Shown here: positions 27,056 to 34,217 of the stretch, one piece after another
How positions within the stretch are numbered: the stretch's first letter is position 1
How the letters are laid out: each line of letters starts with the position of its first letter
NCBI GenBank assembly: GCA_003665825.1
Contig: QPFY01000003.1
Location: 310,001 to 374,000, forward strand
Source: Microbotryum silenes-acaulis
Taxonomy: Eukaryota; Basidiomycota; Microbotryomycetes; Microbotryales; Microbotryaceae
Direction: 5' to 3'
DNA length: 64,000 bases
Translations under genes and position numbers: made by a program
The notes under the pieces: model-generated
What the model saw: the letters and a program-made list of their open reading frames with translations, nothing else
Told to the model about the DNA's origin: nothing
Databases searched by the model: none

Positions 27056-30000
27056 TTAGGAGAGCGTAGATCGAGAAGGTGAAATCGGATTGATTCGACG
27101 AGGCTGCATCACGGGACACGATGTAATAGAGTCATTAGTCATCGCGCTATCACGACCTACTGCATCCTTCCGCTCTCGCTCTGACTCACCTGATAGCCCT
27201 GTAGGTGAAGCTAGTGGAATTTGGGCGAGTAACAATGAGGGATCTTCTTCGACTGAGACCAAACGAGACGTCATGAACTCGGCGAGCCTTCGTTCGGCAA
27301 AGGGGTGGTAGTAGCACGTCATCTTCAAGCCTTCGATCAACCTACAGAGTAGTCTTGTCAGCTCGCCCTGCAGCCCAATACCATCAAACGCAGTGCCAGA
27401 CATACCACTGTTTCTCTTGTTCCGTAACGACCTCCTCACTCGCCGTCGGACCCGGCACCTTCCCCAACCTCTCCTGCGCCAACGTCGTCCAATCCTGCAC
27501 CAATTCCAAATTATAAAACTGATGATAAATCATATGCAAATCCGCGCCCGTCATGTACGCTTTGGCGTAATAAGCGAGGACCTTGAGCCCTTTACGAACC
27601 CGACTTGTTGCTTCGGTGAGGAGAGGGGCGGAAATGATGTCGGACCAGTCCATTAAGGTCGATCGGAGCATGTTGTTTAGGTCGAGGAGGTCTCGATCAA
27701 GACGGATGATGAGAGGACCGTAATCTTTTTCGTGGTGATGGTGATCGTGCTCCGTCGTTGTGGAATGCGCATAAGCTGGAGGAGCGAGGTCCCGCGTCGT
27801 CAACGCTGACAAGACGTGCTGAATTGTCGAACGGGTTTTGTCGATGCTGAGCCACACCTTTCGCACGGCCACTTCGATTTGAGCCGAAGGCTTGGAAGGG
27901 GGTGAGCTAAGGCGAGCGAAATCGCGTTGACAGGTACCTTTAAAACAAGTTCGACGCACAAGGTTCAGTTCAACGCAGCCGAACAATCCAGGGAGCCGCA
28001 CAACTCACATATCCAGCAATGCAGCAAATGCCTGATCGTCTGGAGCGCCTCGGGTCTTTCCTTCGCTTTCGCCAACAGCTTCTCCAACACCGGCAAGAGA
28101 TTATCATCCTCCGGCAAAGCTGGGATCACAATCCCAACATGACTGAAGTAGGCCCGCAAGTCATGATCATCGATACAAGGGAGTCGTCGTCCGAAAGCGG
28201 CTATTTGGGCGTCGGCGGAATAGAGACCGAATCCGAAGGTTTTCTTGAGTTCGATTTGGTCGACTTCGGCCGGAGCGGCGTCGAGCAATTGCTTGTACTG
28301 GTCCAAGGCGCTGCGTAACAAGCTACGCGACTTTTTAGGCTTGCTGTGGAGATAATATTGTGACATATCGGCTTAGTCCTCGCATGTTTTACCTAGTGTG
28401 CTATGACCGAACGGAACTCACAGCTCGACAAACATCGCCATCTGCATAAGCGTCATCAACGACCCCAAATTCTCAATCGACGCTTCCTCCGCCAACCCTT
28501 CATCGAAACACAACTGATGCGCCTGCTTGAGGAAGTTCGTGCACGCCGATTCACGACGCGTCCCCGCACTGAGGAGGGGAGCGTCGGGGTGGTCCCGGGA
28601 GTCTTTGGCTTCGATGGAGATGCCGAGGAGTCCGGAATGTGGTGAAGTACGCGCGCCTACGGCTCGGAAAGCGGCGACTGCGACCTAGGAGGACTCTCGG
28701 AGGGTCAATTTCTATGGCATTGAGCCTGTCCGAGGGACAACGAAGCTCACTTTGGCAGAAGGGCTTAGGAGCCACTCGTCCATTTGGAGCTCGGCCTTGC
28801 GCGATCGAAAGTAGGTATACGTGGGGAGCACGAAGCAGCACGACTCGAAGAAAGCTGGAGCATTCGATAAGCGGGTCAGATGGAACTCATGCAAGATTCT
28901 AAACTCATCGCACACTGACCATCACACAAATGCCTCGACAACGCCGCTGCCATCTGGGGCGTCGCTAGCCTCCAGTCGAGAGAGAATGCACCAATGCTAC
29001 TCGTAGTCGTAGCGAGCGTTGATGTTGTCAATATATCTGACGGATCGTCTGTCGGGAGTGTAGCCACAGCGGACGTCGACGAGGCGGGCAAGCCAAAGAG
29101 AGCCTCGAGCGACGAATCGAAGGCGGTGCCGTCGACGGCGAAAGATGTGTCAATGGGATTGAGGGAGCTCTCAGACTTTGCCGCGAGTTGACCCTCGAGT
29201 TCGGCTGCCAGGATGTAAATGGTGTATCGGTATCAGCGAGCTTTTGACCGGTAGCTCTCAGGCAAAACTTACCCAGCCGTTTCTCCAAATGAGCAATCCG
29301 GCTCGGATCGTTTTGGGCTCTACGGGAGGGAGGGGGAACGGCTAATGCTCAGCATCTGGGTGGAATTATGATCCATGAACAAGACGAGACGCACGATCTC
29401 TTGACCTTGGGTGTCCACCTAATGAGATCGCACTCCTCCTTGCGCTGAGCGCAATGGTGACATGTCGGAAAGCGACGGTCACATTTGACTAAGAATTCGA
29501 ATTCGTGCCAATAGTCAGCCTCAAGCCAGGCATACGCTCAACGCATGAACACTTGCACATTACTCGCCTTTGCGCTCTCGACACCGAATACAACTCTTGT
29601 CGCAGATGATGGTACCCGGAGGCAGTACCGGCTTGGGTTTCCTCTTTCGCATCGGCGGATTCGAAGTGGTCGCCGTCGTCGTTGTCGTTGTACTCGAAGA
29701 CGCGACCGCAGAACCACTCGTATCTCGCTGAATATGTAGCTCACCCTGATCGTCATCATGCATGTCCTCGTCCGATTCGTCGCTGCCCGAGTCGGTCGTC
29801 GCGGAGGGAGGAGCCCGGTCGGACGTGGTCGAGGTCGAGCTTTGCGCGCCAAGCGGGGCTGCAACATCGTCGTCGACTAGATTTCCCGGGAGCAAAGGTG
29901 CCTTTGGTAAGGTAGATGCGTAGGCCGACTCAAGTCGGGTCTGCTGCGCCCATGGGTTGAGGTCAATCGCAGAGACCGTCGCCGCGGACGAAAGGACTTG

Positions 30001-30180
30001 ATGCGACGATGATATGGGTTGAACCGATGGGCCACTGGGGACCATTGATGTGCCGGGTTGGGGTATGAACCGGTCCTCCATGGTGGAGGAGGTCGTTGAG
30101 CGGTGCGAGGGATGTCGCTGCGAAGGTCTGGATAAGCGCGGAACCGGCCGACAAGGGAGCCGAGCGAGTGGGGTTGCCAT
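27056..30180 (-). CDS. Zn2Cys6 binuclear-cluster transcription factor
   Basis: The minus-strand gene runs from ATG at 30180 to TAA at 27058-27056 with many introns. After a Ser/Thr-rich N terminus, a basic stretch (RKRKPKPVLPPGT) leads into the zinc cluster CIRCRERK-VKC-DRRFPTCHHCAQRKEEC, giving six Cys with the C-x2-C-x6-C spacing of Gal4-type factors. A linker then reads NDPSRIAHLEKRL, the usual coiled-coil dimerisation element. The C-terminal about 500 residues (for example SRSLLRSALDQYKQLLDAAP and HNLELVQDWTTLAQERLG-like helices) fit the middle homology region of fungal regulators. The intron inside the zinc cluster (29567-29489) only keeps the frame with a GC donor. Target genes unknown. 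A hAT transposon lies 23-31 bp upstream of the start codon. An alternative ATG (MEDRFIPQ) lies near 30081. Confidence 0.85.
29416..29590 (-). other. Zn2Cys6 DNA-binding motif interrupted by a GC-AG intron
   Basis: The first three Cys are split between exon 1 (CIRCRERK, ending at 29568) and exon 2 (starting at 29488, completing V then KC-DRRFPTC). The intron begins GCGAGT at 29567 and ends TTAG at 29489. Using the nearby GTAATG as donor instead creates an immediate stop, so the GC donor is the only reading that yields the conserved motif. Confidence 0.75.
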
Positions 30181-30211
30181 TTTTACCGAGACGAAGTTCT
30201 GGGGTTGAAAC

Positions 30212-30235
30212 CAGGGCTTCGCATTAGATCAGATA
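30212..30235 (+). repeat. hAT left terminal inverted repeat
   Basis: Starts CAGGGCTTCGCATTAG and is the exact reverse complement of 33926-33949 over 24 bases. The preceding 8 bases (30204-30211) are the target-site duplication copy. Confidence 0.95.
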
Positions 30236-30345
30236 GATGCCTATCTATATCTACACCTCCTATAACTATCGTTCATCTATCTATATGGCCATAGATCATA
30301 GATAGACAGATACGCTTGGACGTAACTACGCAGATATCTAAAGCA
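30236..30345. repeat. Left subterminal TATCTA-rich region of the hAT element
   Basis: Multiple CTATCTAT/TAGATAG motifs in both orientations lie just inside the left end. A similar cluster occurs at about 33785-33925 inside the right end. In hAT elements such subterminal repeats bind the transposase; that role is inferred here. Confidence 0.6.
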
Positions 30346-30765
30346 TCTGCCAGGAATACACATTGAGGAGACAGGTTGTCCATGGTCAGAGGGGTTCAAG
30401 CATATTCAAGAAGCATATCCGCTTAAGTTTCCAAGACCTTATCAAGTCATTGGCTTGGCTCCGAACGGTGGCGGTGAGACAGAGGCCGCCCTCCTGGCTG
30501 CCCAAGGCCGCCCTCCCGGCTGCCCGTTGTGCCCTACTAGTTCGGTCGGCTTCTATCTCGGAAGCGAAGCAAAACATTGCCTATCTTGAAGGCATGAGGC
30601 CTGAGACCTGAGCTCCTGAAAGGAAATGGGCAAATGAGCCAGAAGATTTTGGAGTCCGCATATTGCCACTGGTCGTCTGCCGGTTTCACTTCTCCCCTTT
30701 CTAGTACCTCCCCGTCTTCTCCCTCTCTAGCTCATAAATCCCCAAACTCCTCATCTTGCTACAAC

Positions 30766-33448
30766 ATGGCTACTCCTACTGCCACAGAAGATCTTGTCGC
30801 CACTGTCTTCAGCACGGAGGCGGAAGCAAAAGTGTTCTACACCGAGCTTCGGTCTGCTGGCCCCGAAGACCGATTGCAAGCGAGGTGCGCCGACGTTGCT
30901 CGGGCCTTCCTTTTCTCCCGAACCTCGGGAAAGTGGGATCATTTCGATGTCGTCGTGTTTCGATCGAATGGCAAATTGAAGATCCGAGCAACGTGCAAGA
31001 CTCGTCCAGCCTCTCATTGCGAAACCGTTGACTTCGAGACCGCACACCAACACGGCGTATCGAACTGGAACAGGGGCATCAAACAATGCCTGGCATCCAG
31101 GGGGGAAGGGGCGAACACGGTTAGTTCGCTTGAAATAATGTTTGCAGGCTGTTACAGCAGGTCACTAAAGATTTTTCTGTCTTGTACTTTCAGAACGTGC
31201 AACCATTGCTTTCTGCTGCAATCTTCGACAATGCGTTGTTCATGTTATACATCGTTCTTCACGTTGCAATCTCGAAGGAAGCGTTCACCCACGTAGACCC
31301 CCAACTTCAAACCTGGCTCGCCTACTCCTATCACGTCGCCAATGTGAATGCTATCCTCGGTAGTCACGACACCGTCAAGAGGGTACTCGTTCATCTACAT
31401 AGGGAGCTGTCGGTTCAATTCGGCGAATTTCTTGTCAAGCGAAATCGCGGGATTCATCTGGTCATCGATGGTTGGACCGCTCCCAACTGCATCAGTGTTC
31501 TCGGAGTCGTCGTAGTGTATGAACAAGATGGCGTCGTTCATCGTCACATACTCAAGTTGATCGAGTCGAAAGGTCGCCACGGCGGGAAAGAGCTCGCAGC
31601 GTCGCTTCATGAATGCGTCGAAGAGTTCAAGATCTCGCATCTCGTTCGAACCCTCGTGATGGACAACGCCTCGAACTGCAACAAGATGGCGGTGGAGTAC
31701 AAGAACCTCAATGACTCGTGGTGGGGACCCGAGATGCGAGTTCGCTGCTTCGCCCACATTCTCCAGCTAGTGATGGGCGCACTTTACGCTGCCTTTTCCA
31801 TGGCCCCTGCTCGTCCGCCTACTCCTCGGGCGCGCAAGAACACGACTGGCAAGCATGTATCTGCTTTCGACGGTCATCCCAACGTCGAAGATGATTCGGA
31901 TGCTGAAGATCAGAGGATCGACGACGAGATTGCTCAAGCTCTGTCCATTGCGACTGCCTCTGGTGACTACGACATTTCAGCATTGGAATTTACGGTGAAC
32001 AATTCGAAGACTTGCTTGAGAGAGGCTTTGATTGGGGCGAGTCGGTCGGCATCAAGATTCAACCCATCCTTCGACGAAAATGCATGACCATCATTCCTAC
32101 GATCGCCGATTTTGCACAACACGTTTCGGGACTGAGAGTCAAATCCTCCAACAAACACAGATGGCAGCAGTCGGTCGTTGCCACCGCCAAGGACCGACCC
32201 GATTCCAAGGCGACGGAGCTTTCCCGCAAAAACGAGACGCGTTGGAACTCTATTCACCTCTGCCTTCAGAGCCATGTTCTGTTCTCGAGTGCCATCGACT
32301 ACTATATGGCGCGCGACGACACACCCTCGAACATCGTGGACAAATTCGCCCTTCCTGATGACGCACTTGATATCGTTAAAGAGCTCCTTGACATTGGCGA
32401 ATACCTCAAGACCCTGACGGTTCAGTTCCAAGATGCAACGCCTCGCACTGGGGATGTCATCGCCGAGTTCGAACGAGTTGAAGGCATGCTTGACAACAAG
32501 GCTCAAACCGCTTCTCCCATGGTGCGCATCGCAGCCAAGTCCGCTTTGATTGTTCTGGGCAACTACTACTCGAAGGTTGGCGACGATTCGATTGCTGCAT
32601 TTGGGTCGATGTTCTTTCATCCTCGTCACCATCTGCGATTCTTTCAGCGACCTGGAACTGCTTGGGCTGAAACCGATATCAATGAGAAGCAGAAGAAGCT
32701 CCATGAAATCTACAAGAAGGTGTACCTTCCTCTCTATGAGGACATCCCCGAAGCTGGTCCTCCGTCCCCGATTGATTCCGATGCTTGCTCCGACCACGAT
32801 TTGTATGGTGATGAAGGAGGTGACACACAAGGCTCTCACAACTACTACGAGCCAGATGCCTTCCCCCAGTACTGGGCTAGGGGATGCGTCAGACTGAACA
32901 AGAACGACGCCTACAAGGGGTGCCCTATCAAGTATTGGGTGACACAACGTGCGATTCCAGGGCAGAAGGCTCTTGCCGAGATGGCAATTGACTTCATCAC
33001 ACTTCCACCAACTGCGTGCGATGCGGAACGCGCTTTCTCCACCGGCCGCCGGACGATCAACTATATGCAGCACAGCACCTCCGCCGAAGTTCTGAACGCC
33101 AAGATGTGTCTCGGTAGCTGGGCTAACCCGACCGCTCCTATCTTCGGGGGCACCCCCGAGGGCTTCGCTCGTCATGCCCGACCCATCATCGCAAGTGAGT
33201 TCAAATGAGAGGAGTCATGCTAGCCCCAGCTACTTGCAGCGACTGAGGACCCAATAATCTTTCTTGCAGGCAAGCTCCGTGCTCCATCGAAGCGTGTCGT
33301 GGCAAAGAAGAGTTCTTCGGCAGTCCACAAAGCGAATAAGCGGCAGCGCCACAACGTCACTCGAGAATCCTCGCGATCGACCTCGCTCTCGCAAAATTCG
33401 CCGATTGAGGAGCTGGAACTCTCAGACACGGACGAAGAATCGTCTTGA
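30766..33448 (+). CDS. hAT transposase
   Basis: Exon 1 is 30766-31119, starting MATPTATEDLVATVF. An intron at 31120-31193 (GTTAGT...CAG) leads to exon 2; the 3' intron is 33195-33269 (GTGAGT...CAG), and the last exon ends with TGA at 33446-33448 (tail SPIEELELSDTDEESS). The N-terminal part has a W..F..C...C...H...C pattern resembling a BED-type finger, imperfectly. RNase-H-like catalytic motifs are visible: VIDGWTAPN (first Asp), VMDNASNCNKM (second Asp) and RCFAHILQL; an acidic linker follows. The C-terminal dimerisation region is LPPTACDAERAFSTGRR. The frame changes between about 31940 and 32087. A 38 nt GT...AG segment at 31943-31980 would bridge it, but that is short for an intron here, so a frameshift is equally possible. 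Activity is therefore uncertain. Confidence 0.88.
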
Positions 33449-33784
33449 GCGCTACCCAAGTATGCAACAGAGTGAATCTTCGTTTCTCCCATGTACATAA
33501 TAAACCCTCAACAACATATTTTCTCTCTGTTTCTCTGTTTCTGCCCCTTCATAGATTTTTCAACCGAGTCCTCTAGCTTTCCCTCATTTGCACTTGCTCT
33601 CCGTCGTCTGTCAATAGAATACAAGGCACGGCTGCCATTCTGCCACTTCGTCGAGTTTTTCTGGCGGCAGCTGGAGAGATCTTGTCATGGCTGCAAAGGC
33701 CTTTTGTGTCGAGGACAAGGGAACAAGGGTCCGCCCTGTCATATCTATACACGCACATCTATGCATGCCTCCACACATCTAGTT

Positions 33785-33925
33785 ATCATCTATCAAGTGG
33801 CGTTTATCTACGTAGATATCCACTAGATATCTATCTTTCATCTATCTGTTCTGCTGTAGATGACAGATCTATAGATAGCCCGAAAAAAGGCAAAATTATA
33901 GATAGATAAAAGATATCTACGCGCA
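33785..33925. repeat. Right subterminal TATCTA-rich region of the hAT element
   Basis: Repeated ATCTATC, TAGATATC and TAGATAGAT motifs are arranged in both orientations, mirroring the left subterminal region. The base composition is much more AT-rich than flanking host DNA. Confidence 0.6.
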
Positions 33926-33949
33926 TATCTGATCTAATGCGAAGCCCTG
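33926..33949 (-). repeat. hAT right terminal inverted repeat
   Basis: Ends CTAATGCGAAGCCCTG and mirrors the left terminal repeat exactly over 24 bases. It is followed by the second target-site duplication copy GTTGAAAC at 33950-33957. Confidence 0.95.
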
Positions 33950-34217
33950 GTTGAAACCCAACACTCCGTGAGGTCTCAGTATACGATTGCAAATCAAAAA
34001 AAAACAAAACAACAAATTTCACCGAGTTGCGATTACTGGCACTGTTCAGCGGTTACTGATGGCCACGCGCCACGCGCCACCCCCATTTAGCTTGTCGGCA
34101 ACCACGGCTTTGAAGCGCAGAGCCAGAGCCAGCAGAGCCAGCAGAGCCCGCGTCGCGTCTCGTCCAAGCTCCCGATCGACGACCGGCGTGCCTCATCCCC
34201 GCCACGACATACCCGCG

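Follow-up and report, generated by a model that had tools for sequence, protein, structure and literature searches.

What is the transposon-like element in a 64-kb stretch of the Microbotryum silenes-acaulis genome whose ends are perfect inverted repeats and whose flanks are perfect duplications, and can it still move? The window, by which we mean the whole 64-kb stretch analysed, is contig C3:310001-374000 (QPFY01000003.1); coordinates are those of the window unless a contig or a retrieved stretch is named, and the genome searched comprises 29.85 Mb. The element lies at 30212-33949 (3,738 bp) and belongs to what we call family A. Very probably, family A is a young hAT family of which the window holds a full-length, non-autonomous copy, and the copies produced by its burst have recombined, several of them exchanging flanks. 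Intact terminal inverted repeats (TIRs) together with a target-site duplication (TSD) are no proof of a functional copy, and what makes this locus interesting is less the perfection of the window copy's ends than the way in which the copies recombine as a network.

The ends are as the first-pass annotation described them. The left TIR (30212-30235, plus strand) begins CAGGG and matches the right TIR (33926-33949, minus strand) at 24 of 24 bases; the match ends there, base 25 being different on the two sides. The same 8 bp, GTTGAAAC, flank the element on the left (30204-30211) and on the right (33950-33957). TIRs of hAT elements are short and often begin CA(G)GG. Within the window, neither the TIR 24-mer nor even its initial 8 bases is found beyond the two ends of the element. 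In the whole genome the first 20 TIR bases have 67 matches with at most two mismatches (34 on one strand, 33 on the other) and the reversed control pattern has none, hence the ends of the window element are not a chance pairing. Insertion was carried out by a transposase making 8-bp staggered cuts, as the TSD and, elsewhere in the genome, paralogous empty sites show.

Inside the element we predict a single transposase gene on the plus strand. The best of the candidate models has three exons and two GT-AG introns: exon 1 (30766-31119, open frame with GT-AG junctions), an intron of 74 bp (31120-31193), exon 2 (31194-33194), an intron of 75 bp (33195-33269), and exon 3 (33270-33448), whose product in the spliced model is a C-terminal tail that is basic and then acidic. 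The start codon is a choice, as there is a second candidate, an in-frame ATG upstream at 30634. All four splice hexamers are kept in 24 of 28 further aligned copies; the remaining copies are truncated, deleted or misaligned at these positions. The protein carries a first catalytic Asp in DGWTAPN (31467-31469, column D92), a second in VMDNASNCN (31662-31664, column D157) and a conserved C-F-x-H (CFAH, 31746-31757, columns C185, F186 and H188), and the D, D, C and H columns are invariant among the eight sequences of alignment A1. The Glu of ACDAERAFS (33026-33028), aligned in family A, in the second hAT family of this genome (family B, see below) and in the protein P0002 of Sparassis crispa, is taken as catalytic by analogy with Hermes and Ac. 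The hAT C-terminal dimerisation domain, PF05699 (Dimer_Tnp_hAT), is found at 32924-33121 (E 7.9e-6, 26.0 bits, cut-off 21.4). A structure predicted for exon 2 of one of the open copies (predicted local distance difference test, pLDDT, 57.7; predicted template modelling score 0.59) was compared with the PDB using Foldseek: Hermes transposase accounts for all 12 matches at E ≤ 0.001 (E 3.6e-9 to 6.9e-7), and the next match after the Hermes chains has E 0.11. A sequence search of the PDB gave nothing significant (best E 0.83, with an unrelated protein). Because the motifs with their invariant columns, the dimerisation domain and the match of the model with Hermes agree with the TIR and the TSD, the assignment to the hAT superfamily made in the first-pass annotation is firm. 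An N-terminal BED zinc finger is common among hAT transposases, and not universal. In family A there is an atypical BED-like region, C-K-T-R-P-x2-H ... G-x-x-N ... C, read from the sequence at 30994-31089 on the plus strand; the Cys/His arrangement of exon 1 falls short of a full BED finger, as it does in family B, which reads alike. No Pfam model matched in exon 1 (30784-31116) and no BED match was obtained in the whole protein, which bears out the earlier remark that the BED residues are atypical.

The perfect ends had been read as those of a possibly active element with one transposase gene. The catalytic and dimerisation motifs are indeed present, but the frame is broken: the alignment of copies reveals in exon 2 of the window copy a one-base frameshift near 32030, leading to a premature stop at 32085-32087 (codon 416 of the spliced model). 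Hence, the window copy is structurally complete but non-autonomous. From the genome, 38 stretches with copies or fragments were retrieved, named L009-L046. The frameshift is absent from 22 of the 28 other aligned copies and common to seven copies (the window copy, L011, L012, L015, L016, L017 and L020), among which L015, L016 and L017 have further stops ahead of the one that it causes. An open full-length frame, of 843-846 amino acids, is present in five of the 29 aligned copies (L021, L022, L023, L026 and L027), and L037 has an open frame too, shortened through an in-frame deletion. As L021, L022 and L023 combine the open frame with both TIRs, family A is, judging from its sequences, potentially mobile. 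Yet L026 lacks the right TIR, L027 is separated from its left 270 bp, and in all five open-frame copies the TSD is mismatched or one end is damaged.

How would copies without a transposase of their own have moved? Four frameshift carriers (the window copy, L016, L017 and L020) have their own exact TSDs; this can be explained by trans mobilisation of such copies or by conversion that spread the frameshift, and mobilisation by the transposase of other copies is likely. The carriers stand on several, for the most part weakly supported, branches of a tree whose support is otherwise mostly moderate, and have no other diagnostic site in common, a scatter that favours some conversion or recombination. 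Most likely, the window copy moved with transposase from other copies or lost its frame later by gene conversion. The recurrence of one frameshift in seven copies that are spread over several branches (most with weak support) might instead suggest that it is functional and that the window copy remains autonomous through programmed frameshifting or alternative splicing. We consider this highly improbable given the frameshift's absence from most other aligned copies and the earlier stops of L015, L016 and L017; no splice site or slip signal was seen by eye, without a systematic search.

The window copy is not exceptional in this genome. A search with the element gives at least 70 match rows (40 candidates scored out of 56 at first look). 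There are many other full copies, and at least 25 non-redundant copies are two-ended, 12 of them with exact TSDs. The mean pairwise substitution difference among 22 non-redundant copies, including the window copy, is 1.17% (range 0.48-1.79). The tree and the differences among copies are star-like, and this pattern, with so low a mean divergence, indicates a single recent burst, in agreement with the recent insertion first suggested. (L033, L034 and L041, truncated or misaligned, are excluded from differences and tree; the near duplicates L010, L012, L013 and L023 are also excluded from the pairwise mean, the counts of nonsynonymous, synonymous and C>T changes, and the four-gamete test.) Miniature inverted-repeat transposable elements (MITEs) with the same ends had also been suggested as something to look for; among ends with at most two mismatches, there is no family A left and right pair less than 1 kb apart.

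Relative to the neutral expectation, the ratio of nonsynonymous to synonymous changes in family A is about 0.88 for singletons and 0.65 for shared changes; purifying selection within the burst is not demonstrable (Fisher p 0.39). Between families A and B (one copy each, 654 codons), first, second and third codon positions differ by 43, 33 and 63%, which indicates constraint on the transposase that predates the burst. Repeat-induced point mutation is not seen, as singleton C>T changes are not concentrated at CpA (24 CpA, 24 CpG, 33 CpT, 25 CpC); shared C>T changes lean toward CpG (9 CpA, 20 CpG, 7 CpT, 10 CpC). The copies also have numerous short insertions (3-8 bp), several duplicating adjacent bases, which may be traces left when other elements excised, or may result from slippage.

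Copies of the burst have recombined. For pairs of sites no more than 100 bp apart, four-gamete incompatibility is 0.046, versus 0.133 in permutations, with none of 2,000 permutations as low, and the test at 200 and 400 bp gives p 0.001. Since incompatibility is low for close site pairs, the copies are mosaic; this is shown for the copy set as a whole rather than copy by copy for the exchanged pairs described next. It shows that near-identical copies, dispersed by a single recent burst, went on to recombine among themselves. TSDs provide a separate record. A table compiled by hand lists 25 non-redundant copies with two ends, and their TSDs are identical in 12 and mismatched in 13. It excludes L010 and L013, which duplicate L009, as well as L046, which has two left ends, and it ignores the inner left ends within L030 and L040; L039 and L040 are joined as one insertion. 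The 21 left and 15 right ends without their own partner yield four exact left-right matches of 8-mers between different copies, versus an expectation of 0.005 at 4^-8 and a mean of 0.041 (maximum 2) in letter shuffles. The pairs are L012-left with L011-right on contig C3 (GGCGCAGG), L023-left with L022-right on C2 (CTTGAGAC), L028-left with L023-right on C2 (AAGGTGCA), and L043-left with L024-right on C9 (AGCAGTGC); in all four, both partners are on the same contig. The L022/L023 exchange is reciprocal save for one base. L011/L012 and L022/L023 are inverted pairs and unusually alike (0.16% and 0.24% difference). Outside this pattern, L022 and L028 have a left 8-mer in common (one mismatch), which is explained by their duplicated flanks, 99.3% identical over 300 bp.

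Paralogous empty sites exist within the genome for three insertion sites other than that of the window. When joined, the L028-left and L023-right flanks match the flank of L038 at 209 of 218 positions, unbroken, across a single exact 8-mer, and the L043-left and L024-right flanks match those of L020 at 322 of 378 positions across a single 8-mer with one mismatch, with indels elsewhere. Because the empty sites are contiguous across a single 8-mer, the two sides of one insertion are now, in the assembly, at different copies. Several copies thus appear to have swapped flanks, leaving halves of one original insertion at different copies of the same contig. This is a sign that the flank-swapping sister copies took part in chromosome rearrangement, and the exchanged 8-mers can be used as a list of predicted rearrangements.

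Ectopic homologous recombination between copies, giving inversions and related rearrangements, would be the simplest mechanism. A study of Galileo describes inversions with TSDs exchanged between copies at the breakpoints, produced in this way (PMC2775673). A different process, reversed-ends or hybrid-element transposition, would insert the right end of one copy together with the left end of another, the common 8-mer being a new TSD; it is known from maize hAT elements, for which PMC8225341 reports matching 8-bp TSDs at inversion breakpoints. As this process predicts, the nearly identical L011 and L012 (0.16%) have one 8-mer in common and unlike outer ends, and L024/L043 also have one common 8-mer, although the right end of L043 is missing, which leaves half the prediction. 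The joints that it should leave behind were not found. For L011/L012, the joint AGAGGAA..GAACTTG has five matches, none on C3, versus 10 for the reversed control; for L024, neither the left TSD GCACTAGT nor any 7-mer of it occurs on either strand of the 19.6-kb interval that separates it from L043, these searches being such that joints changed by more than one or two bases would be missed. Moreover, the near-perfect reciprocity of L022/L023 fits ectopic recombination. We regard reversed-ends transposition as quite unlikely and prefer ectopic recombination because of the Galileo-like signature, the mosaicism and the missing joints. L024 and L043, unlike the inverted pairs, are in direct orientation, with retroelement-like stretches in the interval.

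Exchange between near-identical repeats of 3.7 kb can also arise in assembly. If the assembler switched between copies, which are 98-99.8% identical over that length, all real copies might have matching TSDs, and contigs C21, C35 and C46, which have the same flanks around a copy, may reflect unresolved haplotypes or duplications. Against such errors, contigs of up to at least 2.47 Mb suggest long reads, the partners are on one contig in all four exact cases, and L043 is truncated at element position 645, so that a plain switch within a full repeat cannot explain L024/L043. The mosaicism is independent of flanks, though consensus errors could inflate it too. Hence, assembly error is a rather improbable source of the exchanges.

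Besides the possibility of assembly switches, a number of observations weigh against flank exchange by ectopic recombination in a young family, or leave part of it uncovered. Of the 13 copies whose TSDs do not match, eight find no exact left-right partner in the sequence retrieved, and in three of the other five one end has neither an exact nor a near partner, so that a good part of the copies' history is unexplained. L011-left and L036-right agree only when shifted by one, which we count as no more than possible; the same kind of shift brings together L019 and L032, both of which have matching TSDs of their own, and such matches therefore count for little. L009 and L021 have a right 8-mer in common and are on different contigs, and the left 8-mer common to L030 and L040 (C15 and C8) belongs to the element itself, in the surroundings of nested left ends. 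Trans mobilisation and later gene conversion of the frameshift cannot be told apart from the diagnostic sites of the carriers. Within family A, singleton and shared changes do not differ in their nonsynonymous to synonymous ratio (Fisher p 0.39), and the exon 2 model that matches Hermes is of low confidence (mean pLDDT 57.7). A stronger version of the ectopic-recombination reading would see the burst as a recombining network, in which about half of the two-ended copies have lost their own TSD, the copies repeatedly inverted or shuffled stretches of tens of kb within one chromosome, and frameshifted copies that look perfect circulate by conversion and trans mobilisation; we put it forward only tentatively, as somewhat doubtful. 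Family A is a compact case in which burst, loss of autonomy, trans mobilisation, gene conversion and flank exchange can be followed in one young transposon.

Other copies of family A have peculiar structures. L027 (C2:1690970) and L028 (C2:1662298) are 29 kb apart in opposite orientation, one being the left 271 bp and the other a copy without that part, as if one element had been broken by inversion. L046:301-495 consists of two left ends arranged as a 195-bp fold-back, between 8-mers that are unequal, and L030 and L040 have extra left ends, both beside the same internal position of the element. L009, L010 and L013 (contigs C46, C35 and C21) have flanks alike on both sides (98-100% over 300 bp) and represent either a duplicated segment or alternative haplotype contigs. 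A copy that reaches the end of contig C6 breaks off beside GGGGGGGTTAGG, which resembles a telomere repeat (L033:3080-3112); possibly, a chromosome end was healed within the element. Between L024 and L043, L057:3183-8067 (C9:464882-469766) is retroelement-like: two direct repeats of 147 bp, identical to each other, are separated by about 4.7 kb, and long open frames occur between and around them.

Family B, with TIR CAAGGGTTCTCATAGGATCAGATC, resembles family A in its similar 24-bp TIR, its 8-bp TSD, its length of about 3.4 kb and its transposase (46% amino acid identity in exon 2). Copies are L049:2676-6066, L054:647-3994 and L055:513-3897, and TSDs are exact in all three, the only pairs for which they were read. 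Pairing by eye joined 54 of its 65 ends into 27 pairs, with 11 unpaired; 22 pairs are short and MITE-like (0.4-1.2 kb apart) and five are long (about 3.3-3.5 kb), whereas the two-ended copies of family A are mostly full length. L056:263-2850 is a 2.6-kb palindrome of two family B left halves head to head, and because its arms differ (98.5% identity) a simple hairpin-read artefact is argued against. Small elements with ends CATCAGCAA...TTGCTGATG, inserted within the family A copies L039 and L040, form a further MITE-like family, and L036 has at the window-equivalent position 32694 an inserted element that reads similarly. L048:1550-2022 (C17:357049) is a stretch of 473 bp whose ends, CAGGGGTCCGCATTAGATCA, are related though diverged and whose flanks are unequal; it is perhaps an older relative.

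In the window itself, the left TIR is followed by an AT-rich subterminal region (30236-30340) with ATCTAT/ATAGAT repeats (D1, I1, I5 and I10), which are possible transposase binding sites; G+C is 0.42 in the first 200 bp of the element. A 22-bp tandem repeat at 30483-30525 has two units in the window copy and a single unit in many other family A copies. No RNA family reaches its gathering score in the window. Next to the element, a Zn(II)2Cys6-like pattern, CDKSCIRCRERK, can be read on the minus strand of 29200-30203 in a frame whose ATG is at 30180, and KCDRRFPTCHHCAQRKEECD follows in a different frame past a likely intron. The window copy is some 30 bp upstream of this ATG, within the presumed leader or promoter of the Zn(II)2Cys6-like gene.

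Is family A, as had been surmised, an undescribed fungal lineage? It is remote from known proteins. At least four homologues of the transposase have E ≤ 1e-3 among 7,994 scored candidates. The closest among the matches listed, P0001 (an unnamed protein of an ENA contig), has 39% identity over 52% of the query. P0002 ('Putative AC transposase' of S. crispa, 26% identity) and P0004 (a protein of Kwoniella sp. CBS 6097, 24%) have the same catalytic Asp columns and PF05699 listed, and, compared by protein alone, are too diverged from family A to count as one family. A profile search found at least five proteins, two already known and three distant ones added; it missed P0002 and P0004 though both are in the query alignment, and so is no measure of rarity. 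Hence, family A looks undescribed in the material searched, which did not include Repbase, yet the superfamily to which it belongs is well known. None of the titles and abstract openings considered reports, for a hAT family of fungi, TSDs exchanged at the breakpoints of rearrangements.

Other fungal hAT groups exist, among them hAT7, whose TSDs are given as 7 bp in PMC12730594, in contrast to the 8 bp of family A. With Hermes, Ac, hobo and Tol2, family A shares the 8-bp TSD, short TIRs, a D-D-E RNase-H-like transposase and the C-terminal dimerisation domain. It differs from known hAT elements in its remote sequence and atypical BED-like region, and its predicted fold is nearest to Hermes. In its exchanged TSDs, as in L011/L012 and L022/L023, family A resembles Galileo of Drosophila. 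The latter belongs to another superfamily (P), and there, according to PMC2775673, inverted and non-inverted chromosomes were compared directly.

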